A stretch of DNA of 64,000 bases. It comes from [Clostridium] ultunense DSM 10521. Lineage in GTDB: Bacteria; Bacillota; Clostridia; Tissierellales; Tepidimicrobiaceae. Location: the NCBI RefSeq assembly GCF_000511955.1, contig NZ_AZSU01000002.1, forward strand, positions 302,223 to 366,222, written 5' to 3'. The translations under genes and the position numbers were made by a program. Shown piece by piece: positions 46,388-64,000 of the stretch (its first letter is position 1; every line of letters starts with the position of its first letter). The notes beneath the pieces were generated by a model. That model saw only the letters and a list, made by a program, of their open reading frames with translations, had not been told where the DNA came from and ran no database searches.

Positions 46388-46431
46388 GGGGAATGTCAAT
46401 TATCATACATTAAATAGAAAGGGGGATGGGA

Positions 46432-48240
46432 TTGGAAACTAAATATCTAAAGATGTCTATGGAGTATAGAAATTTAATCGACATACTTATGAGTGATAAG
46501 GATTATGCAGATATTGTTCTATATGATGGAGAAATTGTAAATGTTATCACCAGGGAAATTTATAGAGGGGATATTGCCATAAAAGAAAAATATATTTTAT
46601 TAGTAGGGGATTGTAAGGATTTAATTGGGCCAGATACTTTAGTTATAGATGTAAAGGGCAAATATTTATCTCCTGGCTTCATTGATTCCCATATGCATTT
46701 TGAATCCAGTATGCTTACGGTAACAGAGTTTTCTAGATTATCTATTCCTTCTGGGACTACTACCTTAATTGCGGATCCCCATGAAATAGGGAATGCATTA
46801 GGACCAGTTGGGATGAAGGCTATGGCCGATGAGATAGACTCGGTCCCTAACAAAGTACATCTTGTAGTTCCAGCATTAACCCCAGATTGTCCTGATTTGG
46901 AAACTGCAGGCTATGATACTAGTTCTAAGGATATGGAGGATTTACTGAATTATAAACATATTATTGGAATAGGAGAATTGCAAGGTTTTAGCAATGCAAA
47001 ACATGTTTATAGAAATACTCCAGAGATAATTACAGATCTGCTGGCTTCCACTATATACGCTAAATCTAAGAATATGGTGGTAGATGGGAATGCACCTGAG
47101 CTATTTGGTGCTGAGTTAGCAGCCCATATAATATCCACTGGAGGAAAATGTTCTTGCCATGAAACTACTACTAAAGAAGAAGCAGTAGAAAAACTGCGGC
47201 AAGGAGTCTACCTATTTATGAGGGAAGGCTCTACCCAGAGGAATATGGCTGAATGTATTAGGGCAGTTACAGAAGAAAAAATGGATTCTAGAAGATGTAT
47301 TTTAGCTACAGATGATATGGTAGCAGCTGATTTAGAGACTATAGGCCATATGAATGAAATTGTAAGAAGAACTATAAAAGAAGGAGTAAACCCTGTAGAG
47401 GCTATTCAGATGGTTACCATAAATCCAGCTACCTATTTTGGATTAGATGATGTTGGAGTGTTGGCTCCTGGCAAGATTGCAGATATAGCCATTATAGATG
47501 ATTTAGAAGAGATGGTAGTAGAAGGGGTTTTCATAGATGGAAAGTTGGTAGCTTCGAAAGGAGAATTATTGATAGATTTACCTACCTATACCTATCCGGA
47601 ACAGGTGAAAAACTCTGTTAAAATTGGACCTATTTCTGAAAAAGATTTAGAAATAAGAGCAGAGGGAAGTACAGCAAAGGTACGATGTATAGAGGTTATT
47701 CCAGATCAAAACTTAACAGGGAAATTAGAAGAGACGGTAAAGGTATATAACGGAGTAGCTGAACCAGATGTATCGATGGATACATTGCAAATAGCTTGTA
47801 TAGAAAGGTATGGTAGAACAGGCAATATTGGCAAGGCATTTGTAAAGGGCTTTGGAATGAGAAATGGGGCCTTTGCCGAGTCAGTAGCCCATGATACCCA
47901 TAATATAATTGTGGTAGGTACTAATATTGGAGATATGACTTTGGCTGTAAATAGAGTCATAGAACTAGGTGGAGGTATTGCAATAGCCAATAAGGGAAGG
48001 ATATTATCTGATATGAGGCTGGCAGTAGGTGGATTGATTACTGACGAATTAGATGGACATGAAGTAAGTAGTAAAATTGCAGAATTGGAAAGGATAGTAA
48101 AAGAAGATTTAGGATGTAAAATCCATGCACCATTTATGCATCTATCCTTCTTAGCCTTATCCACATCACCAACATGGAAAATCACTGACAAAGGCCTAAT
48201 AGATGTGAACAACTTTAAAATTCTTCCACCAATAGTTTAA
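46432..48240 (+). CDS. Divergent adenine-deaminase-family amidohydrolase, candidate 4-aminoimidazole deaminase
   Basis: 602 aa from TTG 46432 (the ATG six bases earlier touches the RBS AAAGGGGG). Adenine-deaminase architecture: GFIDSHMHFESSML, DPHEIGNALG, bridging Glu in GIGELQ, CHETTT, REGSTQRNMAE and TDDMV. Compared with the canonical paralog at 53.4 kb, the conserved DGH motif is DGN here (VVDGNAP), the DDKHP stretch is lost (DDMVAADL), and it is ~30 residues longer. An altered metal/substrate pocket suggests another amine substrate. Its place right after the shell genes makes 4-aminoimidazole deamination to 4-imidazolone a reasonable hypothesis; an unusual adenine deaminase is the alternative. 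Confidence 0.75.
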   Translation: METKYLKMSMEYRNLIDILMSDKDYADIVLYDGEIVNVITREIYRGDIAIKEKYILLVGDCKDLIGPDTLVIDVKGKYLSPGFIDSHMHFESSMLTVTEFSRLSIPSGTTTLIADPHEIGNALGPVGMKAMADEIDSVPNKVHLVVPALTPDCPDLETAGYDTSSKDMEDLLNYKHIIGIGELQGFSNAKHVYRNTPEIITDLLASTIYAKSKNMVVDGNAPELFGAELAAHIISTGGKCSCHETTTKEEAVEKLRQGVYLFMREGSTQRNMAECIRAVTEEKMDSRRCILATDDMVAADLETIGHMNEIVRRTIKEGVNPVEAIQMVTINPATYFGLDDVGVLAPGKIADIAIIDDLEEMVVEGVFIDGKLVASKGELLIDLPTYTYPEQVKNSVKIGPISEKDLEIRAEGSTAKVRCIEVIPDQNLTGKLEETVKVYNGVAEPDVSMDTLQIACIERYGRTGNIGKAFVKGFGMRNGAFAESVAHDTHNIIVVGTNIGDMTLAVNRVIELGGGIAIANKGRILSDMRLAVGGLITDELDGHEVSSKIAELERIVKEDLGCKIHAPFMHLSFLALSTSPTWKITDKGLIDVNNFKILPPIV

Positions 48241-51131: not shown

Positions 51132-52397
51132 ATGAACCTGGATATAGTAGGTAGGAATATTTTAAGGATAGATGCCTTAAGCAAGGTCACTGGTAAGGCC
51201 TTATATCCTGAGGATATATTTATGGATAATATGGTCTATGGTAAAACCTTAAGGTCTAAAGTACCCCATGCCTATATTAGGATAGATACGGGAAAAGCGG
51301 AAAAAATAGATGGAGTAATTAAAGTTTTGACCCATAAGGATGTACCCAATAATGAACATGGGGTAATATTTAAAGATCATGAGGTATTCTGTAGTGAAAA
51401 GGTGCGGAGGATTGGAGATCCAATAGCTTTTGTAGTTGCCAAGAATAAAAAAATATGCGAATTAGCATTGAAGGAAATCCTTATAGAATATGAGGAAATA
51501 GAAGAGGTTTTTTGTCCAATAAAAGCTATGAAGGAGGATTCGCCTAAGGTACATGGAGATACTAATATAGTATACCATTATAAGATTAGAAAAGGTGATG
51601 TGGAAGAAGGTTTTAAAAATAGTTATGCCATTGCAGAAAATATTTATAGAACCCATATGGTAGACCATGCTTTTTTACAACCTGAAGCAGGGATATCTTT
51701 TATAGATGAGGAAGGTAGGGTTACCGTAATGGTAGCTACCCAATACCCCCATTATGATAGGGAGGAAATAGCCTCTGCACTGGAATTATCGGAAGAAAAG
51801 GTAAGAATAATCAATACCAATATAGGAGGGGCCTTTGGTGGTAGAGAAGATATTAGCCTTCAAATCCATTTAGCCTTAGCAGCAAAAGTTTTAAATAGAC
51901 CAATAAAAGCTATATATTCTAGGGAAGAATCTTTTATTGCCCATGCTAAAAGGCATTCTATGATAATGAAATATAAAACAGGAGCAGATAGAGATGGAAA
52001 ACTATTAGCTATGGAAGCAGAAATAGTTGGGGACACAGGGGCTTATGCTTCATGGGCTACTAATGTTTTAAGAAAATCAGGGGTTCATGCAACAGGTCCC
52101 TATTTTATTCCTAATGTAAAGGTAGATAGTATTGCAGTCTATACCAACAATCCCTTTGCAGGGGCCATGAGGGGGTTTGGTGCTACTCAAGTGCCCATAG
52201 CTCATGAACAACAGATGGATATTTTAGCAGAAAAACTAGGAATAGATCCAATAGCCATTAGGATGAAAAATATATTTAAACAGGGATCTATTACTGCTAC
52301 TGGTCAGGTGCTAACTGATAGTGTGCCCTTAGATAGATGTATAGAAAAAGTGGCAGAGAAAATAGACTTTTCCCTTGAGAGAGAGGAGGCCTATTGA
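51132..52397 (+). CDS. Molybdenum hydroxylase large subunit, N-terminal half (NdhL-like)
   Basis: 421 aa: aldehyde-oxidase a/b hammerhead domain (~15-120) and first molybdopterin-binding domain (~135-375), with NTNIGGAFGGREDISLQIHL (Mo-site Gly-rich loop) and NPFAGAMRGFGATQVPIAHE. It ends at a domain boundary, where single-chain xanthine dehydrogenases would continue. The other half is a separate gene overlapping by 4 nt. Eubacterium barkeri nicotinate dehydrogenase has the same division into a ~50-kDa and a ~37-kDa Mo subunit. The sequence after the TGA carries a second TGA, so selenocysteine read-through is excluded. Confidence 0.85.
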   Translation: MNLDIVGRNILRIDALSKVTGKALYPEDIFMDNMVYGKTLRSKVPHAYIRIDTGKAEKIDGVIKVLTHKDVPNNEHGVIFKDHEVFCSEKVRRIGDPIAFVVAKNKKICELALKEILIEYEEIEEVFCPIKAMKEDSPKVHGDTNIVYHYKIRKGDVEEGFKNSYAIAENIYRTHMVDHAFLQPEAGISFIDEEGRVTVMVATQYPHYDREEIASALELSEEKVRIINTNIGGAFGGREDISLQIHLALAAKVLNRPIKAIYSREESFIAHAKRHSMIMKYKTGADRDGKLLAMEAEIVGDTGAYASWATNVLRKSGVHATGPYFIPNVKVDSIAVYTNNPFAGAMRGFGATQVPIAHEQQMDILAEKLGIDPIAIRMKNIFKQGSITATGQVLTDSVPLDRCIEKVAEKIDFSLEREEAY

Positions 52398-53398
52398 TGA
52401 AGAAAAGAGGAAGGGGAATAGGATTATCTTTTTATGGAACTGGATATGGAAATGGATTTCCCGATGCATCTAAAGCAAAAGTAAAACTCCTTAAAGATGG
52501 TAAGGTTGGTATATATGTGGGGGGAACTGAGGTAGGTCAGGGAGCTAAAACCGTTCTTTCTCAAATTGGATCAGAAACTTTAAAATTGCCTCTAGATAAA
52601 ATAATATTTATTTCCGAAGACACTAGCCTAATGCCTGACTCAGGTACAGCAGCTGCCAGTCGCCAAACCTATAATACGGGAAATGCTATAAAGATAGCCT
52701 GTGAGAATTTTAAAAATAGATTGAGGGAAGCAGCTAGGGAGCAGTTAAAATTAAATGCAATCCATGGATTAACTGTGGAAAAGGGAGAAATATATTTAGA
52801 GTTTTTTCCTCAAAAAAGAATTTCCTTTAAAGAATTGTCCAAAATCTATGGTGATGATAATATAGAAGCAGAAGGCGAGTTCATTGCTCAAACGATAGAG
52901 ATGGATCCGGAAACTGGGCAAGGAGCTCCTTATTGGCCTTATACTTTCAATGCCTGTGGAGTAGAGCTAGAAGTGGATACTATTACTGGATTAGTTGAAA
53001 TAGAAAGGGCAGTTTTTGCTCAAGATGTAGGAAGAGCGATTAATCCCCATCTAGTAGAAGGACAAATGGATGGAGGTTTTGCCATGGCTTTAGGTTATGT
53101 TTTATTTGAAGATTTAAAACTGGAAAAGGGTAAAATATATAATAATAAGTTTTCAAAATATTTAATACCAACGGCCATGGATATGATTCAGATAGAAAAT
53201 ATAATAGTAGAAGAACCAGAGTATACAGCTCCCTTTGGTGCTAAAGGTATAGGAGAACCAGTGATGATACCTGTAGGGCCTGCCATATTAAATGCTATTT
53301 ATGATGCCATAGGGGTAAGGATTACTGAACTGCCTGTTACCCCCGAAAGGTTAATTAAGGCCATAGAAGAGGATGGAAAGAAGAAAGAGGAGATATAG
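52394..53398 (+). CDS. Molybdenum hydroxylase medium subunit, C-terminal half (NdhM-like)
   Basis: 334 aa, start TTG 52394 or ATG 52397, with GAGAGAGGAGG upstream inside the previous gene: a proper RBS, which argues for a true split rather than a frameshift. Contains the second molybdopterin-binding domain: GTEVGQGAKTVLSQIGSETL (~50-69), DTSLMPDSGTAAASRQTY and, near the end, PFGAKGIGEPVMIPVGPAIL with the catalytic Glu in the GxGE motif. Completes the Mo active site with the large subunit. Substrate probably hypoxanthine, xanthine or purine from context; nicotinate is the architectural precedent. Confidence 0.88.
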   Translation: MMKKRGRGIGLSFYGTGYGNGFPDASKAKVKLLKDGKVGIYVGGTEVGQGAKTVLSQIGSETLKLPLDKIIFISEDTSLMPDSGTAAASRQTYNTGNAIKIACENFKNRLREAAREQLKLNAIHGLTVEKGEIYLEFFPQKRISFKELSKIYGDDNIEAEGEFIAQTIEMDPETGQGAPYWPYTFNACGVELEVDTITGLVEIERAVFAQDVGRAINPHLVEGQMDGGFAMALGYVLFEDLKLEKGKIYNNKFSKYLIPTAMDMIQIENIIVEEPEYTAPFGAKGIGEPVMIPVGPAILNAIYDAIGVRITELPVTPERLIKAIEEDGKKKEEI

Positions 53399-55108
53399 AT
53401 GGAAAGAATTATAAAGATTGCTAAAGGAGAAATAAAAGCAGAATTGGTATTAAAGAATGCCAATATAATCAATGTATTCACTAATGAAATAATTAAAGGT
53501 GATATAGCTATTGAAAGAGGAAAGATAATAGGCATTGGTGAATATGAAGGCATAGAAGAGATGGATTTAGAAGGAAAATATCTATCTCCTGGATTCATAG
53601 ATTCCCATGTCCATATTGAATCCTCTATGGTAACTCCTGGTCAATTTGCAAAGGCTATTTTACCAAGGGGAGTCACTGCTGTAGTTACCGATCCTCATGA
53701 GATAGCTAATGTAAAGGGAATTGAGGGAATAAAATATATGCTAGATGAAAGCCAAGACCTACCTTTAGATGTATATGTAATGTTGCCTAGCTGTGTTCCT
53801 TCAACTCCCTTTGAAAATGCAGGAGCTGTACTTGAAGCAGAGGATTTAGAGAAATTGATGAATGAAGAAAGGGTTTTAGGCCTAGGAGAGATGATGAATT
53901 ATCCAGGAGTTATAGGGGGAGATGAAAAGGTACTAAAGAAACTGGATTTATTTCAAGATAAGGTTATAGATGGTCATGGACCTCTTATTACAGCCAAAGA
54001 ATTAAATGCCTATGTAGCTGCAGGAGTAAAAACGGAACATGAATGTTCTACAAAGGAAGAGATGATAGAAAGACTTAGGCTAGGGATGTACATCCATATT
54101 AGAGAAGGCTCTGCAGCTAGGAATTTGAAAGAATTGATTAAGGTAGTGGATAAAGATAATTTAAGAAGATGTTTATTTTGTACTGATGATAAACATCCTG
54201 GGGATCTATTAGTAGATGGGAGTATTGATCATAATATAAGACTAGCTATAAAAGAGGGAATAGACCCTATAGATTGTATTAAGATGGCTTCCTTAAATCC
54301 AGCAGAAGCTTATGGATTAAAAAGTAAAGGCGCTATAGCTCCTGGATATAAGGCGGATTTAGCAGTTATAGATAACCTAGAGGATTTTAATGTAATAAGG
54401 GTATTTAAGGAAGGTAAATTGGTAGCAGAAAACCATAAACCTTTATTCCAAATTCCAAGTAGGGATAATAGTTCTATGAAGAATACGGTAAATATTAAAA
54501 GAGTCGAAATAGAGAGTTTAAGAATTCCAATTAAAGGCGAAAAGGTAAATGTAATAAAGTTACTCCCTCATAGTTTGATTACAGAAAAGGTAGTAAAGGA
54601 TGTAAAGGATATGGTAGTGGAAGATGGTGCCTTTATAAGGGGAGACAATATATTAAAGGTAGCAGTAATTGAACGACATAATAGGACGGGAAATATTGGT
54701 TTAGCTTTAGTAGAGGATTTTGGTTTAGAAAATGGAGCTATAGCCTCTACCGTAGCCCATGATTCCCATAATATAATAGTAATTGGAGACAATGATGGGG
54801 ATATGCTCTTAGCTATAGAAGAACTGGAAAGGGTTGGAGGAGGGCTAACCATGGTATCGGAAGGGAAAGTGCTGGATACCTTAGCTTTAACTATTGCTGG
54901 CCTTATGTCAGAGGAACCTTTAGAACAGGTGGATAGAAAATTAAATAAGATGTTGGAAATTGCCTACGGGAAACTAAAGGTAAATGAAAACCTAGACCCC
55001 TTTATGACTTTATCTTTCATAGCATTACCTGTAATTCCAGATATTAAGGTAACGGATTTAGGTTTATTCCATGTAGGGGAATTTAAATTCATAAACCTAA
55101 CTGAATAA
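53399..55108 (+). CDS. ade: Adenine deaminase
   Basis: 569 aa, canonical family member. GFIDSHVHIESSMVTPGQFA (~60-79), DPHEIANVKG, PSCVPSTPFENAG, GLGEMMNYPGV, VIDGHGP, EHECSTKEE, REGSAARNLKEL and CTDDKHPGDLL, and a C-terminal domain with HDSHNIIVIG. Hydrolyses adenine to hypoxanthine and ammonia, with Mn/Fe. Starts one base after the NdhM-like stop, so co-translated with the hydroxylase that would act on its product. Its stop codon lies inside palindromic repeat copy D. Confidence 0.95.
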   Translation: MERIIKIAKGEIKAELVLKNANIINVFTNEIIKGDIAIERGKIIGIGEYEGIEEMDLEGKYLSPGFIDSHVHIESSMVTPGQFAKAILPRGVTAVVTDPHEIANVKGIEGIKYMLDESQDLPLDVYVMLPSCVPSTPFENAGAVLEAEDLEKLMNEERVLGLGEMMNYPGVIGGDEKVLKKLDLFQDKVIDGHGPLITAKELNAYVAAGVKTEHECSTKEEMIERLRLGMYIHIREGSAARNLKELIKVVDKDNLRRCLFCTDDKHPGDLLVDGSIDHNIRLAIKEGIDPIDCIKMASLNPAEAYGLKSKGAIAPGYKADLAVIDNLEDFNVIRVFKEGKLVAENHKPLFQIPSRDNSSMKNTVNIKRVEIESLRIPIKGEKVNVIKLLPHSLITEKVVKDVKDMVVEDGAFIRGDNILKVAVIERHNRTGNIGLALVEDFGLENGAIASTVAHDSHNIIVIGDNDGDMLLAIEELERVGGGLTMVSEGKVLDTLALTIAGLMSEEPLEQVDRKLNKMLEIAYGKLKVNENLDPFMTLSFIALPVIPDIKVTDLGLFHVGEFKFINLTE

Positions 55109-55911: not shown

Positions 55912-56481
55912 ATGATTGGTGGAATTATAATGGCTTCAGGTTTTTCAAAACGGATGGGAGAAGATAAGCTTTTAATGGAAATAGATGGAGTTAAAATGGT
56001 GGAAAGGGTTATTCGAAGTTGCAAAGACTCCTCTTTAGATGAAATAATATTAGTATATAGAAGAAAAGAGGTAAGAAAGATAGGAAAAAAATATTCTATT
56101 AAAACCATATATAATCCTAATGCCTATTTAGGTCAATCGGAGAGTATGAAATTAGGGATAAAGGCAATTAAAGATTGCCAAGCCTATATGTTTTTAATGG
56201 GGGATCAGCCTTTTATTACGAAGAGGTTAATTGATAGATTGATTGAGGAATATAAAAATGATAAATCTACCATTATTGTTCCTTATTATAATGGTAGAAA
56301 TGGAACGCCTACCATTTTTTCTTCCAAATTTAAAGATGATTTGTTACAGGTAGAAGGGGATAAAGGTGGAAGGGATATTATAAGGAGAAATGTATCTTCT
56401 GTAAAGAAGGTTATAATAGATGATGGGAAATTGGGGTTGGATGTGGATACACCTATAGACTTCAAAGGAGTGATATCATGA
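55912..56481 (+). CDS. MocA/YgfJ-like molybdenum cofactor cytidylyltransferase
   Basis: 189 aa from ATG 55912 (AGGAG 7 nt upstream). Nucleotidyltransferase N-terminus GIIMASGFSKRMGEDKLLME (sugar-phosphate NTP-transferase loop), FLMGDQPFIT (~87) and NGRNGTPTIFSSKF. Attaches CMP to molybdopterin for hydroxylase-type enzymes (MCD cofactor). Four bases of overlap with the next gene and position after yqeC place it in a hydroxylase maturation unit. Confidence 0.88.
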   Translation: MIGGIIMASGFSKRMGEDKLLMEIDGVKMVERVIRSCKDSSLDEIILVYRRKEVRKIGKKYSIKTIYNPNAYLGQSESMKLGIKAIKDCQAYMFLMGDQPFITKRLIDRLIEEYKNDKSTIIVPYYNGRNGTPTIFSSKFKDDLLQVEGDKGGRDIIRRNVSSVKKVIIDDGKLGLDVDTPIDFKGVIS

Positions 56482-58211
56482 CTTCGTTATTACAGGAAAT
56501 TAAGGAAGACGTTATTAAGTATGCTGAAGTAATATCTAATGTAATAAAGGTAGATGTTGAAATAGTAGATGAAGGCATGAGAAGAATTGCTGGAACCGGG
56601 ATATTTAAGGACCAGATAGATGCGGTAAATAAGGGTTCTGTATATAGAAAGGTAATAGAGGCAGGAAAACCTCAAATAATTGAAAATCCTAGAGAACATG
56701 AACTTTGTAGGGATTGTGTTGAAAAGGATAGCTGTATAGAGAAATTGGAAATATCAACTCCCCTTGTCTATGAGGAAGAAATTATAGGGGTAATAGGTTT
56801 AGTTTGTTCTACCGATGAACAAAAACAACTTATTTTAGAAAATATAGACTCCCAAATGCAATTTTTGCATCAAATAGGAGATTTTATATCTTCTAAGGTA
56901 TATCAGCATAATGAGACAAAAATGCAGATTGAAAGGGCTCAGGTACTAAGGAAAATATTAAATAATGTAGATAAAGGTGTGCTGGTATTAGACTCAGATG
57001 ATAAAATAACTATGGTCAATAATAATGCAATGAGAGAATTAAAACTATATTCTACTGAATTGGAGAAAAGAGTAAAGTTGATAGATAAATATGAATATAT
57101 AATGGGAGGGGAGCTTTACGAATTAAAGGTAGATAGAAAAAGTTTCTATTTAGTAGGAAATATTATACCTATCCACTCCATATCTAAGGAATATGCAAAA
57201 GTATTTATATTCAATAATATGAATAAGATAAACTCGGATATCTATAAGATAACCACTAGCGAAAAGAGGATAACCTTAGATTCTATAATTGGGGAATCTA
57301 AAGTTATGAAAGTATTAAAGGAAAAGATAAAAAGAATTGCCTCCACCCAATCCACAGTATTAATAACGGGAGAAAGTGGGACGGGAAAGGAATTAGTAGC
57401 AAGAGCAATCCACGATTTAAGCGATAGAAGGCATAAGCCATTTGTTGCTGTAAATTGTAGTGCTATGCCAGAAGCTTTAATGGAATCAGAGTTATTTGGT
57501 TATGTAAAGGGAGCTTTTACAGGAGCAAATCCTAATGGTAAAATAGGTAAATTCGAGCTTGCCAATGGAGGAGTTATATTATTAGACGAAATAGGAGATA
57601 TGCCCCTATATATGCAGGTCAAACTTTTACGGGTTCTGCAAGAAAGGACTGTAACCAGGATAGGATCTAATCAACCTATTGATTTAGATATTAGAGTTAT
57701 AGCCGCTACTAACTTAGACTTGGAACAAAGGATTAAAGAGAATAAATTTAGAGAGGATTTATATTATAGATTGAATGTAATCCCCATAGAAGTTCCTTCC
57801 TTAAGGGAAAGGGATGGGGATATAGAATTAATTATAAATATGTTAATCGACAAATATAATATCTTATTTGATAAATATATTCATGGTATTGAAGATGAGT
57901 GTAAAGAGATACTATTAGATTATTCCTGGCCTGGCAATGTAAGAGAGCTTCAAAATACTATTGAATATATGATAAATATAGCTAGTGATATAGGTATGTT
58001 GACAAAAGATATGTTACCAGAAAGCATTTTAAATAGTGTAGATATGAATTATTACGGAGATGAAATTGAAATTAAACCACTAAAGGAAGTAGAACAGGAA
58101 TATATAAAAAGAGCTCTTAGCATATATGGAAATAGTACAGAAGGAAAGAAATTAGCAGCAGAGAAATTAGGTATTGGTGTAGCTACTCTATATAGAAAGA
58201 TTAAAGAATAA
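56478..58211 (+). CDS. Sigma-54-dependent transcriptional activator, YgeV-like
   Basis: 577 aa. N-terminal GAF-like sensor (~1-150) with a Cys cluster (LCRDCVEKDSC, ~75-85) that could bind metal or sense redox, then a PAS-like segment (~155-250), the AAA+ domain (Walker A GESGTGKELV ~300, sigma-54 contact GAFTGA ~350, ILLDEIGDMP ~370) and a Fis-type helix-turn-helix at the end (GKKLAAEKLGIGVATLYRKI). E. coli YgeV has the same layout and lies beside ygeW-ygeX. It very likely binds the three palindromes immediately downstream and drives the promoter at 58601. Confidence 0.92.
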   Translation: MTSLLQEIKEDVIKYAEVISNVIKVDVEIVDEGMRRIAGTGIFKDQIDAVNKGSVYRKVIEAGKPQIIENPREHELCRDCVEKDSCIEKLEISTPLVYEEEIIGVIGLVCSTDEQKQLILENIDSQMQFLHQIGDFISSKVYQHNETKMQIERAQVLRKILNNVDKGVLVLDSDDKITMVNNNAMRELKLYSTELEKRVKLIDKYEYIMGGELYELKVDRKSFYLVGNIIPIHSISKEYAKVFIFNNMNKINSDIYKITTSEKRITLDSIIGESKVMKVLKEKIKRIASTQSTVLITGESGTGKELVARAIHDLSDRRHKPFVAVNCSAMPEALMESELFGYVKGAFTGANPNGKIGKFELANGGVILLDEIGDMPLYMQVKLLRVLQERTVTRIGSNQPIDLDIRVIAATNLDLEQRIKENKFREDLYYRLNVIPIEVPSLRERDGDIELIINMLIDKYNILFDKYIHGIEDECKEILLDYSWPGNVRELQNTIEYMINIASDIGMLTKDMLPESILNSVDMNYYGDEIEIKPLKEVEQEYIKRALSIYGNSTEGKKLAAEKLGIGVATLYRKIKE

Positions 58212-58310
58212 TTATCAAAATGATAATAAGCATATAAAAGTTTGTTAAACGCCTAACATATTAAGGGGTGGGGATTATCAAAATGATAAAATCTATTATC
58301 GTTTTGATAA
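58212..58310 (+). promoter_or_regulatory. Three phased palindromic enhancer sites for the sigma-54 activator
   Basis: TTATCAAAATGATAA at 58212-58226 and again at 58275-58289, and TTATCGTTTTGATAA at 58296-58310 (one change plus inversion). Centres are 63 and 21 bp apart, i.e. six and two helical turns, so all face the same side of the DNA. They lie ~290-390 bp upstream of the -24/-12 promoter, a normal enhancer distance. Confidence 0.85.
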
Positions 58311-58478
58311 TTATGCTTTTTAATATTGATAACAATAGATTTATAAGTACTTGTAAAAATAAAAAAATATAATATTGGAATTAGCTACAATGGTTGTAAA
58401 TACCGACCTTAAGAATTTATTCTCGACAGGTGCTTTTAATTTTGATATTTATAATTTTAATAAAAGTATAGATAAGGA

Positions 58479-58506
58479 ATTGCTGAGGGTCTTCAGCAAT
58501 TTTTTT
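58479..58506 (+). terminator. Terminator between the activator gene and the sigma-54 promoter
   Basis: Perfect 8-bp stem ATTGCTGA / TCAGCAAT with a GGGTCT loop and seven T residues. Isolates the ygeX operon from read-through. The small frame across it (58375-58572) is not a gene. Confidence 0.88.
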
Positions 58507-58600
58507 GTTAAAAATTTAATTATCAAAAAACCAATGGAAATGTTGAATTTTACACATTCAATGGAGAAATAAATAAAATTAACTTTAATAAAACGTAAGA

Positions 58601-58618
58601 TTGGCATATAAATTGCAA
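58601..58618 (+). promoter_or_regulatory. Sigma-54 (-24/-12) promoter
   Basis: TTGGCATATAAATTGCAA: GG at 58603-58604 and GC at 58615-58616, exactly 12 bp apart, matching TGGCAC-N5-TTGC closely. Predicted transcription start about 58628, leaving a ~35-nt leader before the ygeX ATG. Confidence 0.88.
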
Positions 58619-58662: not shown

Positions 58663-59913
58663 ATGAATGATGCTATATCAATAAAGGAAAAAGCATTTTC
58701 AGAAAATAATATTATTAAATGGAAGGAAAATCAACTTTCTAAAACGGATGTAGAAGGGTGTATAAAAATATTAAATAAAGATGAAATAAATAAAGCTAGA
58801 ACTTTCCATGAAAGTTTTGACCAATATTCAAAAACACCTTTACAAAATTTAAAGAAACTAGCAGAACATATTGGAGTTGGGGGAGTTTATTTAAAGGATG
58901 AATCTTATCGTTTTGGATTAAATGCCTTCAAGGTTTTAGGTGGTTCTTTTGCTATAGCTAAATATATGGCTAAAAAGCTTGGTAAAGATGTTTCGGAACT
59001 AGGATATGAAACACTGATATCTAATGAAACTAGAGAAAAGCTAGGAGATATGGTATTTGTGACTGCTACTGACGGCAACCATGGGCGTGGAGTAGCTTGG
59101 ACGGCTAATCAACTGAAGCAAAAATCTGTAGTATATATGCCAAAAGGTTCTTCGGGGGCAAGGGTGGAAAACATTAGAAAAGAAGGAGCAGAAGTTACAG
59201 TTCAGGATATGAACTACGATGATTGCGTTAGATTGGCAGCAAAATATGCTGAAGAAAATAATGGAGTAGTAATACAAGATACAGCTTGGGAAGGATACGA
59301 AGACATTCCCACATGGATTATGCAAGGATATGGCACTATGGCTTTGGAAGCAATAGAACAATTAGAGGAATTAGGAGTATATAAACCTACACATATTTTT
59401 ATTCAGGCTGGAGTAGGTTCATTAGCAGCGGCAGTTCAAGGAGTTTTTGCAAATATTTATGGGAAAGATTGTCCTACTACAACCATAGTTGAAGCAGATA
59501 TTGCAGATTGCTTTTATAGATCAGCAGTAGCAGGAGATGGAAAAGCAGTAGCAGTTGGGGGAGATTTACAAACTATAATGGCTGGATTGGCTTGTGGAGA
59601 AGCAAATACAATAGGATGGGAGATCCTTAAAAATCATAGTTCAATGTTTGTATCCTGTCCTGACTGGGTTGCAGCTAATGGTATGAGAATATTAGGGAAT
59701 CCATTGAAAAATGATCCTCATGTAATTTCAGGAGAATCAGGGGCTGTAACTACTGGTTTATTGGTAGAAATAATGAAGAATGATGAATACAAAGAATTAA
59801 GAGAAAAGCTAAATCTTAATAAGGATTCTAAAATATTATTATTTAGCACAGAAGGAGATACAGACCCAGATAAATATAGAAGCATTGTATGGCTGGGAGA
59901 ATGTACAAAATAA
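58663..59913 (+). CDS. ygeX: Diaminopropionate ammonia-lyase (YgeX/DpaL)
   Basis: 416 aa, fold-type II PLP enzyme. Schiff-base lysine in RFGLNAFKVLGGSFA (~residue 88), phosphate/substrate loop TATDGNHGRGVAWTA (~131-145), SSGARVENIRKEGAEV and a late Gly-rich SGESGAVTTGL. Breaks 2,3-diaminopropionate into pyruvate and two ammonia. In E. coli and gut bacteria ygeX belongs to the cluster linked to anaerobic uric-acid breakdown, which makes diaminopropionate a plausible intermediate here. First gene behind the sigma-54 promoter, RBS GAAGGGAG. Confidence 0.93.
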   Translation: MNDAISIKEKAFSENNIIKWKENQLSKTDVEGCIKILNKDEINKARTFHESFDQYSKTPLQNLKKLAEHIGVGGVYLKDESYRFGLNAFKVLGGSFAIAKYMAKKLGKDVSELGYETLISNETREKLGDMVFVTATDGNHGRGVAWTANQLKQKSVVYMPKGSSGARVENIRKEGAEVTVQDMNYDDCVRLAAKYAEENNGVVIQDTAWEGYEDIPTWIMQGYGTMALEAIEQLEELGVYKPTHIFIQAGVGSLAAAVQGVFANIYGKDCPTTTIVEADIADCFYRSAVAGDGKAVAVGGDLQTIMAGLACGEANTIGWEILKNHSSMFVSCPDWVAANGMRILGNPLKNDPHVISGESGAVTTGLLVEIMKNDEYKELREKLNLNKDSKILLFSTEGDTDPDKYRSIVWLGECTK

Positions 59914-59941: not shown

Positions 59942-61132
59942 ATGTTAACTGAAGTAAGAAAAGAAAAATTAGTTAAACTATGCCAAGAACTAATAAGAAA
60001 TCCTAGTGTTTCCGGTCAGGAAGATAAGGTGGTAGAAGCTATTAAAAAGGTTTTTAAAGAATTTAATTTTGATGAATACTTTGTAGATAGTTACGGAAAT
60101 ATTATAGGTCATATTAAGGGAAAAGGACCAGGTAAGACTATTTTATTTGATGGACATATAGACCATGTACCTGTAACTGATGAGCAAAAATGGAAGTTTG
60201 GTCCTTTTTGTGGCGAGATAGCAGAAGGAAGAATATATGGACGTGGTACTTCAGATATGAAAGGTCAAGTTAGTGCTATGATAACTGCAGCATCTTATTT
60301 TGCAGAAGATACTAATAGAAATTTTGATGGAGATATTTACGTAGCTGGAGTAGTCCACGAGGAGATATTTGAAGGAGTAGCTGCAAGGAAGATAAGCGAT
60401 GCTATTAATCCCGATTATGTAGTAATAGGAGAATCTTCAGAGTTAAATTTAAAAATTGGTCAAAGAGGTAGGGCAGAAATTGTAATAGAAGTATTTGGAA
60501 AGCCAGCCCACTCTGCTAATCCTGAGAAAGGTATTAATTCAGTCTATAAAATGGCTAATATAATAAAAAGAATTCAAGAACTAAAACCAATAGTACATGA
60601 AGAATTAGGAGAAGGTATTTTAGTGTTAACAGATATTAAATCTTCTCCTTATCCAGGAGCTTCAGTTGTACCAGAGTATTGTAAGGCTACTTTTGATAGG
60701 AGATTGTTAGTAGGGGAAACAAAGGAATCTGTGTTGACACCAATAGAGGAGTTATTAGACCAAATGATGAAGGAAGATCCAGAGCTAAATGCTAAGGTTT
60801 CCTATGCAATAGGAACTGAAATCTGCTATACAGGCCAAACTATCACTGGAGAAAGGTTTTTCCCAGGCTGGTTGTTTGACAAAGAGGATGAGTTTGTACA
60901 AGCTGCATATAAAGGATTGAAAGAAGTCGGTCTTGAACCTGAGGTAACTCATTATTCCTTCTGTACTAATGGAAGCCACTATGCAGGGGAAAAAGGAATA
61001 AAAACCATAGGCTTTGGTCCATCTCAAGAAAATCTAGCTCATACAATTAATGAATATATAGAGATAGAGCAATTGGAAAAAGGTGCTAAAGGATATTATG
61101 GGATATTGAAATCCGTTTTTAATATCTATTAA
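59942..61132 (+). CDS. ygeY: YgeY-family M20 metallohydrolase
   Basis: 396 aa from ATG 59942 (GTGGAGGATGAGAGG upstream). M20 peptidase/deacylase motifs: FDGHIDHVPVTD (~67-78), GRGTSDMKGQVSAM (~100-113), VVHEEIFEG (catalytic Glu, ~140) and late CTNGSHYAGEKG. Known as the selenium-metabolism-linked hydrolase YgeY. Likely hydrolyses an N-acyl or carbamoyl amino-acid intermediate of the purine route; the substrate is unproven. Second gene of the sigma-54 operon. Confidence 0.9.
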   Translation: MLTEVRKEKLVKLCQELIRNPSVSGQEDKVVEAIKKVFKEFNFDEYFVDSYGNIIGHIKGKGPGKTILFDGHIDHVPVTDEQKWKFGPFCGEIAEGRIYGRGTSDMKGQVSAMITAASYFAEDTNRNFDGDIYVAGVVHEEIFEGVAARKISDAINPDYVVIGESSELNLKIGQRGRAEIVIEVFGKPAHSANPEKGINSVYKMANIIKRIQELKPIVHEELGEGILVLTDIKSSPYPGASVVPEYCKATFDRRLLVGETKESVLTPIEELLDQMMKEDPELNAKVSYAIGTEICYTGQTITGERFFPGWLFDKEDEFVQAAYKGLKEVGLEPEVTHYSFCTNGSHYAGEKGIKTIGFGPSQENLAHTINEYIEIEQLEKGAKGYYGILKSVFNIY

Positions 61133-61162: not shown

Positions 61163-61642
61163 ATGAAGGTAACACTAACTATAAATAATAGTAATAGAAC
61201 ACTGGATGTTAGGCCGGACGAATTTTTGCTTGATACTTTAAGAAGACTTGGGTATTTAAGTGTTCAAAGAGGATGTGATACAAGTTCCTGCGGTTTATGT
61301 GCAATATGGGTTGATGATGAGATTGTACTATCTTGCACCTATTTAACAGTACGAGCAACAGGGAAGAGTATAACAACCTTAGAAGGAGTAAGGGATGAAG
61401 CTAAGAAATTTACCGACTTTTTAGCTGATGAAGGTGCAGAACAATGTGGATATTGTGCTCCAGGATTTATAATGACGGTACTTGCTATGGAAAAAGAACT
61501 GATCAATCCTAGTGAAGAAGAAATATGCCATTATTTAAATGGCAATCTTTGCCGATGTACAGGATACAAGGGACAGATTAGGGCCGTTAAAAAATATTTA
61601 GAATCTAAGGTAGCGAGAGGGGAAGGAAGATGGTTACAATAA
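61163..61642 (+). CDS. xdhC: Second molybdenum hydroxylase, [2Fe-2S] subunit
   Basis: 159 aa. Clusters: RGCDTSSCGLCAIWVDDEIV (first ferredoxin cluster) and QCGYCAPGF ... GNLCRCTGYKG (second). The first cluster departs from the usual CxEGxCGAC wording (CDTSSCGLC), which separates it from the paralog at 50.7 kb. Third gene of the ygeX operon; overlaps the FAD subunit by 13 nt. Confidence 0.93.
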   Translation: MKVTLTINNSNRTLDVRPDEFLLDTLRRLGYLSVQRGCDTSSCGLCAIWVDDEIVLSCTYLTVRATGKSITTLEGVRDEAKKFTDFLADEGAEQCGYCAPGFIMTVLAMEKELINPSEEEICHYLNGNLCRCTGYKGQIRAVKKYLESKVARGEGRWLQ

Positions 61643-62424
61643 AGGAATATATTGCACCTAAAACCATAGAAGAAGCTTATGAGCTTCTCATAGCTAGAAA
61701 GAATAATTTAATATTAGGTGGATGCGGATTTATAAAAATAGGTTCTAGAAATATTAATACAGCTATAGATTTATGTAATCTGTCCTTAGACTATATTGTT
61801 GAAAATGAAGAAGAGATTTTAATTGGTGCAGATACCACTTTGAGGCAATTAGAAATTAATAATATCATTAAAAATCATTGTGGAGGGGCAATTAGTCAAG
61901 GAGTTTCTTATATTGTAGGAGTACAGTTTAGAAATATGGCTAGGGTTGGAGCCAGTGTATTTTCTAGATATGGGTTTTCCGATTTATTGCCATCTTTATT
62001 GGTATTAGATGCAAAAGTAAGACTTTATAAAGGTGGAGTTATGGATTTGAAAGATTTTTTAGAGAAAAAATATGAGAAAGATATATTATTGGAAGTAATA
62101 TTACCTAAAAAGGACGGTATAGCTGTATACGATTGTTTAAGAAAATCTTCTGGAGATTTGCCTATTATAAATGGAGCAATGTTCAAAGGAAATAATTGCG
62201 AATATGTAATTGCTATAGGTTCTCGACCTCAAAGAGCAAAATTAGCTGAAAAATCTATGGAAGCTTTAGAATATGGTGCAAGTATAGATAAAGTTGCAGA
62301 TATGGTGGTTGATGAATTACATTTTGGAACTAATATGAGAGGAAGTAGAGAATATAGAGAAGAGATGTGCAAAGTATTGATAAAAAGAATGCATGATAAG
62401 GTTGGTGGTTATCATGATAGGTAA
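61630..62424 (+). CDS. xdhB: Second molybdenum hydroxylase, FAD-binding subunit
   Basis: 264 aa, shorter than typical (~290). FAD-family signatures are weaker than in the first cluster: NLILGGCGFIKIG in place of a GGTDL motif, and GVQFRNMARVGASVFSRYGF in place of RNxGTIGGN. So the FAD site is divergent and could be altered or lost. Likely the electron-exit subunit of the purine/urate-linked hydroxylase. ATG overlaps the xdhC end; GGGGAAGGA upstream. Confidence 0.82.
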   Translation: MVTIKEYIAPKTIEEAYELLIARKNNLILGGCGFIKIGSRNINTAIDLCNLSLDYIVENEEEILIGADTTLRQLEINNIIKNHCGGAISQGVSYIVGVQFRNMARVGASVFSRYGFSDLLPSLLVLDAKVRLYKGGVMDLKDFLEKKYEKDILLEVILPKKDGIAVYDCLRKSSGDLPIINGAMFKGNNCEYVIAIGSRPQRAKLAEKSMEALEYGASIDKVADMVVDELHFGTNMRGSREYREEMCKVLIKRMHDKVGGYHDR

Positions 62425-64000
62425 AGGAATAAGGAAAGTAGATAGTGAGTCCATATTAAGTGGACAACCAATATATACAGATGATTTAGTTTTTCATAAA
62501 GATGTTTTAATAATTAAACTTTTAAGAAGTCCCCATGCTTTTGCTAGGATTAAGAATATTAATATTGATAGGGCTAAAAAGGTAGAGGGGATTGTAGAAA
62601 TATACACCTATAAAGATGTTCCTCAAGTTAGATACTCTGAATCAGGAGAATCTTATCCTGATCCTACACCTTATGACAGAATGTTATTGGAACCTATTGT
62701 AAGATATGTGGGAGATGAGGTTGCCATTATAGTTGGAGAAGATGAGGTAGCTGTTGAAAAGGCAATGAAATTAGTAAAAGTAGAATATGAAGTACTTGAG
62801 CCAGTATTAGACTTAATTAAGGCAGAAGGACATAGCTCTATCATACATCCAGAGGATGATATATTTTGTCCCTTTGATTTTGGATTTAATGGGAAAAAGA
62901 ATATTGTTTCAAGATTTAAATTAGGCAAAGGGGATGTGGAAGAAGAATTTAAAAACTGTGACCTTGTAATAGAGAGAACTTACCATACTCAGGCACAAGC
63001 TCATTGTATGATGGAAACTCATAGGGCATATTCCTATATAGATGCAAATGGGAGAATTGTTGTAATATCTTCTAATCAATCAGCCTACCACATGAGAAGA
63101 CAAACTGCTAAAGCTATTGGTCTACCTGTATCAAAGTTGAGGTTTATAAAACCAAGGATAGGTGGAGGTTTTGGAGGTAAAAATGTAGCGTTAGCTGAAC
63201 CTTATGTAGCTTTTGTTACATGGAAAACAAAAAGACCATCTAAACTTATATATACAAGGAAAGAAACTTTTGCAGCCTCTACAAGTAGACATGAAATGAA
63301 ATTTGATGTAAAAATTGGTTCGGATTTAGAAGGAAATATTAAAGCTATAGATATTAATTCCATAAACAACACAGGAGCTTATGGTGCTAATGGAACTGTA
63401 GTAACTATGGAAGCTGCACAAAATGTATTGCCTGTATATAATAAAGTACCAGCAATAAGGTATAGAGGAAAAACAGTTTATACCAATATAGTTTCAGCTG
63501 GACCTCTTAGAGGTTATGGTGCAACTCAAGGGACTTTTATTACTGATACAGCTATAAATGAACTTAGTAGTAAACTTGGAATAGAGCCTGTGGAAATTAA
63601 ACTTAATAATACAATACGAAAAGGAGCTGAAGGTGGGATATTAAAAAATCCTATTAAAAGTCTCAATGTAGAAAAATGTATTGAGAGAGGTAAAGAATTA
63701 ATAGGTTGGGATGAAAAATATCCTAACAAGGAAATTAACTCTACTAAAGTAAGAGCTGTTGGCATGAGTATAGCTATTCATGGCTCTGGAATTGCTAATA
63801 TAGATTCCGCTACAGTAATTGTCCAAATGGTAGAAGATGGAACATATATATTATTAACTGGTTCATCGGATTTAGGCACTGGTTCCGATACAGTTCTAGC
63901 ACAAATTACAGCTGAATCATTGAATACGAATATGGATAGAATTACAGTTTATTCAGGGGATACTGATGCATGCCCTTATGATACTGGTGCCTATGCTTCT
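62414..64000 (+). CDS. xdhA: Second molybdenum hydroxylase, molybdenum-binding subunit (truncated by window end)
   Basis: Open from ATG 62414 to the last base, 529 codons in frame with no stop. Hammerhead domain (~10-115), KPRIGGGFGGKNVALAEPYV (Mo-binding loop, ~250), SAGPLRGYGATQGTFITDTA (~365) and the start of the second Mo domain (GSSDLGTGSDTVLAQITAES). Unlike the enzyme at 51-53 kb this subunit is a single chain: it runs past the point where that one splits. Overlaps xdhB by 11 nt. Probably hydroxylates a purine; the C-terminal Glu motif lies outside the window. Confidence 0.93.
   Translation, partial: MIGKGIRKVDSESILSGQPIYTDDLVFHKDVLIIKLLRSPHAFARIKNINIDRAKKVEGIVEIYTYKDVPQVRYSESGESYPDPTPYDRMLLEPIVRYVGDEVAIIVGEDEVAVEKAMKLVKVEYEVLEPVLDLIKAEGHSSIIHPEDDIFCPFDFGFNGKKNIVSRFKLGKGDVEEEFKNCDLVIERTYHTQAQAHCMMETHRAYSYIDANGRIVVISSNQSAYHMRRQTAKAIGLPVSKLRFIKPRIGGGFGGKNVALAEPYVAFVTWKTKRPSKLIYTRKETFAASTSRHEMKFDVKIGSDLEGNIKAIDINSINNTGAYGANGTVVTMEAAQNVLPVYNKVPAIRYRGKTVYTNIVSAGPLRGYGATQGTFITDTAINELSSKLGIEPVEIKLNNTIRKGAEGGILKNPIKSLNVEKCIERGKELIGWDEKYPNKEINSTKVRAVGMSIAIHGSGIANIDSATVIVQMVEDGTYILLTGSSDLGTGSDTVLAQITAESLNTNMDRITVYSGDTDACPYDTGAYAS

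Follow-up and report, generated by a model that had tools for sequence, protein, structure and literature searches.

The 64,000-nucleotide stretch of the [Clostridium] ultunense DSM 10521 genome analyzed here (the window) carries near its end a gene for a sigma-54 enhancer-binding activator of the DioR/YgeV type (56478..58211, plus strand), recognized by its Pfam matches, an orthologue alignment, and the GAF fold of its product. A 451-bp intergenic region separates it from ygeX (dpaL), encoding diaminopropionate ammonia-lyase (58663..59913, plus strand). Between the two are three 15-bp palindromes, for which no strand is assigned. The distal one, site A (TTATCAAAATGATAA, 58212..58226), begins directly after the activator stop codon and is kept in relatives. 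Of the two proximal ones, site B (58275..58289) has the same sequence as A and corresponds to the first member of a tandem pair in relatives, while site C (TTATCGTTTTGATAA, 58296..58310) starts 21 bp after B and has a single mismatch (TTATCG...); its position holds a perfect site in relatives G001 and G241. The centers are at 58219, 58282, and 58303, with spacings of 63 and 21 bp, just where the first-pass annotation of this DNA had placed them. Farther downstream are a probable intrinsic terminator and a predicted -24/-12 promoter, considered below.

The clustering of these sites goes beyond what shuffled sequence produces. The pattern TTATCNNNNNGATAA has three copies in the 64-kb window, all in this intergenic region, compared to a mean of 0.20 in 100 dinucleotide shuffles of the window, none of which contained three. 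Within the 451-bp region itself, three sites match TTATCAnnnTGATAA with at most one mismatch, against 0.0095 per shuffle, and three together were seen in none of 2000 dinucleotide shuffles. A pattern search of the whole 3.2-Mb, AT-rich genome gave 14 matches to TTATCNNNNNGATAA. A genome search for the 15-mer had been suggested in the first-pass annotation; there are four perfect copies of TTATCANNNTGATAA, two of them at the ygeX locus and the other two (L002 and L008) inside coding sequence, where they look like chance occurrences. Since single sites are not rare genome-wide, it is the cluster that is informative, rather than any one site alone. A literature search for the palindrome had a fungal paper as its sole match.

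Phylogenetic footprinting ties the sites to the activator gene. In a first set of 61 genomes, with orthologues ranked by identity to the 56478 activator, perfect-core sites were found near all ten orthologues of at least 47% identity (the window's own included) and near none of the 20 next-best homologues among the matches listed. A gene-blind search for paired perfect TTATCAnnnTGATAA sites was then extended to 249 genomes of the order, with the reversed pattern as a control. Close pairs are present in 16 genomes and wider ones in 26, for a union of 31, and the reversed pattern gave no pairs across the same 249. In every one of the 29 genomes whose loci were read, a pair adjoins a DioR-like gene and/or ygeX or ssnA. 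A reading of the repeats as chance occurrences or transcript hairpins would draw on the AT-richness of the intergenic region and the isolated sites within coding sequence, but is hardly credible against the shuffles, the empty control, and the conservation beside the activator in relatives, which contradicts it; nor did any RNA family match come near a curated threshold.

Across 30 loci, the sites are usually arranged as a distal site followed by a tandem pair 18–22 bp apart, with a sigma-54 promoter 108–186 bp after the last perfect site. These loci were selected for perfect pairs, so an unvarying core is a product of the selection; spacing, order, and neighboring genes are not. The long spacing is 54–84 bp at most loci and 120–168 bp at four, with no helical phase (Rayleigh p ~0.5 at 10.5 bp over the 30 loci), and only that of the tandem pair is constrained. 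The two distances given earlier for the three palindromes are correct, but the helical phasing proposed from them fails for the longer one, which is unphased in relatives.

Beyond the order, close pairs occur in 5 of 391 genomes of the class Clostridia, at ten places. Seven of these, in three genomes, precede purine genes: ygeX, XDH (xanthine dehydrogenase), guaD, ssnA, an NCS2 permease gene, and a deaminase-like gene. One genome (G688) has a cluster before each of ygeX, XDH, and guaD, and another (G488) before each of ygeX, ssnA, and the NCS2 permease gene. The remaining three places, in G737 and G805, have pairs spaced 34–37 bp and no adjoining activator or purine gene. Two of these look-alike pairs (L229 and L230) are by cysK/cysE-like genes and one (L233) by other genes, with no DioR-type activator in view. 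The palindrome alone is therefore not unique to DioR, and another regulator can probably use a look-alike at these places. In a Desulfotomaculum metagenome-assembled genome whose homologue (L073) is 45% identical, the motif is absent, with TTCTCnnnnnGAGAA in its place; 3' of that gene (L073:7790-7830), TTCTC-n5-GAGAA palindromes replace TTATCA-n3-TGATAA, possibly a shift of specificity.

Fur/PerR-type boxes are made up of half-sites in the order TGATAAT-n-ATTATCA, at a fixed spacing. The half-site TGATAA/TTATCA of the palindromes is similar, and tandem sites form TGATAA-n-TTATCA junctions between them, so they might bind some other regulator, for example a repressor of the Fur/PerR family, with the adjacency of the activator being incidental; the pairs before cysK/cysE-like genes, where the activator is absent, would be in keeping with this. 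The order of half-sites in a Fur-type box is however opposite to that within each 15-mer, the start-to-start distance at the tandem junction varies from 18 to 22 bp whereas every 15-mer, the isolated distal one included, is retained, and in the genomes read from the order the sites follow the activator and purine genes without exception. With TTATCAnnnTGATAA as the conserved unit and the reverse junction of varying length, identification as a Fur/PerR-type box was rejected, and binding by a different regulator at this locus is judged improbable.

The activator itself has a GAF domain (residues ~1–145), a PAS-like domain (~160–245), an AAA+ domain containing GAFTGA (as KGAFTGA), and a Fis-type helix-turn-helix (HTH) ending LGIGVATLYRKIKE. 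Pfam matches to Sigma54_activat (6.4e-74) and HTH_8 (7e-07) are above their cut-offs, and one to GAF_2 (8.1e-06) is just below. On these sequence features, namely GAFTGA within an AAA+ sigma-54 domain and an HTH of the Fis type, it is a bacterial enhancer-binding protein. A full-length structure model (mean pLDDT 70) was weak in the AAA+ part, and one of the sensor only was therefore made (mean pLDDT 86); in this the N-terminal domain has a GAF fold spanning residues 1 to ~150, with best Z scores of ~14–16 across 123–139 residues. The second domain has weak sequence matches to PAS domains. The Cys-containing, GAF-like sensor described in the first-pass annotation is borne out by C77, C80, and C86, which are invariant in 14 sequences, including clostridia, a Desulfotomaculum, and a Photobacterium. 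A fourth cysteine, C110, is shared by all of the ten closest sequences and missing from E. coli YgeV. The three-cysteine motif is also found in more distant homologues and in YgeV, which makes it a feature of the wider family; it may have a redox function or one involving a metal. Identity with PrdR, the proline reductase activator, was considered and rejected (NCBIfam NF041552, 394 bits against a cut-off of 795).

A regulator of this kind and its link to ygeX have already been predicted. Nie et al. (2019; PMC6615313) predicted a DioR regulon for the Clostridiales that includes dpaL, the same gene as ygeX, and derived a motif for its upstream activating sites. The predicted targets are dpaL (ygeX)-pyrC-argE, ygeW-ygfK-ssnA-ygeY, pbuX, yqeC-ygfJ-yqeB-xdhC, and dioR itself, and the function of DioR was listed as unknown in their 2019 table. 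In C. difficile, dpaL2 expression in a sigL mutant is 0.3 of wild type, and DioR2 is given as the regulator of its -24/-12 promoter; promoters are listed for both DioR1 and DioR2 (PMC7438776). A further paper calls DioR uncharacterized and suggests a role in purine metabolism (PMC11448449). The 56478–58211 activator adjoins, and is upstream of, predicted DioR-type targets, namely ygeX and further purine genes preceded by -24/-12 promoters, and fits the DioR type, an assignment by common targets. The earlier view of the family as poorly characterized thus holds for experiment, while its regulon had already been predicted. Shared with the published regulon are a sigma-54 activator, dpaL as a predicted target, adjacent genes, -24/-12 promoters, and multiple upstream sites, which are usual for such activators; here, in contrast, the target is a single operon with a UacX/UacY-type gene set, and a greater distance separates promoter and sites. 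Neither a site map for this organism nor the three-site layout was found in the literature searched, which left most subscription journals outside its scope.

The predicted promoter (TTGGCATATAAATTGCA, 58601..58617, plus strand) has one mismatch to TGGCACNNNNNTTGC, as expected from the near-consensus element of the first-pass annotation, and would place the transcription start at ~58628. At two mismatches, the -24/-12 pattern is no commoner in the window than expected by chance (30 against 24), so the case for the promoter is built on its position and on relatives, most of which have similar promoters 3' of the sites. It is ~306 bp past site C (start to start), compared to 108–186 bp in most relatives, and only G241 has a comparable distance. 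Between sites and promoter is the probable intrinsic terminator (TTGCTGAGGGTCTTCAGCAA followed by T7, 58480..58506, plus strand), whose inverted repeat was listed on the minus strand and whose T run was read on the plus strand; a comparable hairpin is present in G241. It would probably stop transcripts of the activator operon, and probably keeps the ygeX operon apart from the xanthine dehydrogenase-activator operon that precedes it. A riboswitch was also considered because of the stable fold in this interval (z -3.1), but no Rfam match approached threshold.

The unusual distance, the chance frequency of two-mismatch elements, and the autoregulation predicted for DioR could all be accommodated if the sites do belong to the activator but 58601 is not the relevant promoter, with ygeX reached by read-through or by transcription starting at a sigma-70 promoter, and the sites serving another promoter or the activator gene itself. 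The terminator-like hairpin between the upstream operon and ygeX counts against this. In addition, 58601 is the best -24/-12 match of the region, a very similar element is found in G001, and sigma-54 is encoded in the genome. Only a slim chance is therefore given to this alternative, and the 58601 element is retained as the candidate promoter.

The genes that it would drive begin with ygeX (NCBIfam equivalog TIGR03528, 666 bits against a cut-off of 532) and continue with ygeY, encoding an M20-family hydrolase (59942..61132, plus strand; NCBIfam equivalog NF009555, above cut-off), and a three-subunit xanthine dehydrogenase-type enzyme (61163..64000, plus strand). The operon runs on past the end of the window on the same strand (L200), with ssnA-like, UacX-like (DHO_dh-ferredoxin), and UacY-like (Amidohydro_3) genes, hyuA, and yqeB, for an overall order of ygeX-ygeY-XDH-ssnA-UacX-UacY-hyuA-yqeB. 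The UacX and UacY types were assigned by Pfam domain and gene order. By homology, this appears to be the C. difficile-type set for reductive degradation of uric acid: the cluster described for that pathway (PMC12507026) likewise has ygeX, ygeY, XDH, ssnA, hyuA, UacX (DHO_dh), and UacY (Amidohydro_3) domains in one gene run, with the difference that the ssnA-like protein here scores below the NCBIfam SsnA cut-offs. That paper does not treat control of the cluster, and the words regulator and sigma are absent from its text.

The target is not fixed. In G001, the nearest relative, the activator is 96% identical and both the sites and a sigma-54 promoter remain, but between that promoter and ygeX-ygeY comes a mannose-type PTS operon (L201:12335-18376; IIC, IID, an aldolase, a dehydrogenase, IIA/IIB-like proteins, and a sugar-binding regulator). 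Elsewhere in the neighborhood, at window positions 51132-53398, two overlapping frames (421 and 334 aa) share the molybdenum-binding subunit of the first xanthine dehydrogenase between them, a split that recurs in G001 (L201:3608-5874). There are also two different adenine deaminase genes ~5 kb apart (46426-48240 and 53399-55108), with NCS2-type permease and xanthine dehydrogenase genes amid them.

Taken together, the palindromes track activator orthologues and lie upstream of putative sigma-54 promoters of ygeX or ssnA, as the first-pass annotation had supposed for this pair of binding site and target, and the core of that proposal has good support from comparative genomics. The reading preferred, with a probability of about 90%, is that they are the upstream activating sites of the adjacent DioR/YgeV orthologue, with the element at 58601-58617 as the promoter under its control. 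One activator dimer may bind each palindrome through the Fis-type HTH. The GAF domain, with its cysteines, and the PAS-like domain would sense a signal, probably a purine or an intermediate of the pathway. DNA looping to sigma-54 polymerase and promoter opening are the established mechanism of bacterial enhancer-binding proteins, and as a member of that family the hexamer would be expected to reach the polymerase in this way and switch on the reductive uric acid degradation set. Three sites could hold three dimers, enough for an AAA+ hexamer, by analogy with NorR at norVW (PMC2941729), also a GAF-AAA+-HTH activator with three enhancer sites that scaffold its hexamer, and the closest case in the family to have been worked out. 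NorR has other sites and targets and a different sensor chemistry, that of nitric oxide, and the analogy is mechanistic only.

The E. coli homologue, YgeV, also named IsrR in EHEC (PMC9426417), is similar to the activator over nearly its full length (38% identity over 592 columns, E 2e-141), and the two share a purine gene neighborhood, as orthologues would. Its recognition helix (GIGIATLYRKIK) is nearly identical to that of the window activator. They also have in common the C-x2-C-x5-C motif and a link to ygeWXY, ygfK, ssnA, and xdh genes, and the YgeV iModulon contains the same pathway genes (PMC12132413). In E. coli K-12, the mocA-ygfK interval has a perfect site, TTATCATAATGATAA, upstream of ygfK, and 174 bp past it a near-consensus -24/-12 element (TGGCAAGAGTGGTGC); 5122 of 5426 E. 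coli genomes contain this region. The ygeW, xdhA, and uacT regions have only two-mismatch sites. In a set of ten intergenic regions at purine genes, drawn from E. coli and three further YgeV-bearing Gammaproteobacteria, there are five sites with at most one mismatch, compared to 0.03 in shuffles, and 13 with at most two, compared to 0.45. The regions were picked for purine genes, but some of them after a site was seen, and the enrichment is somewhat inflated for that reason. Identical 15-mers (ATATCAATATGAGAA) are found in the ygfT-uacT (L198:4160) and ygeV-ygeW (L071:9942) intergenic regions of E. coli, both adjoining YgeV iModulon genes. No earlier statement of the ygfK site, or of related sites at purine operons of other YgeV-bearing Gammaproteobacteria, was found in the same body of literature. 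In contrast to the clostridial system, E. coli has degenerate sites in its other regions, YgfK and YgeW enzymes instead of UacX and UacY, and a YgeV without the fourth cysteine.

On balance, DioR and YgeV are somewhat more likely than not to be one family of the Bacillota and Gammaproteobacteria that has retained the TTATCAnnnTGATAA site and would be a dedicated switch for anaerobic breakdown of purines and uric acid, with the layout of distal site and tandem pair being the clostridial one. The degradation of uric acid by anaerobes of the gut is relevant to gout, and the enzymes involved have been described only recently (PMC12507026). Its control is uncharacterized, and the predicted site, promoter, and operon make that control directly testable; the predicted site upstream of ygfK could be tested in E. 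coli with standard K-12 reporter strains.
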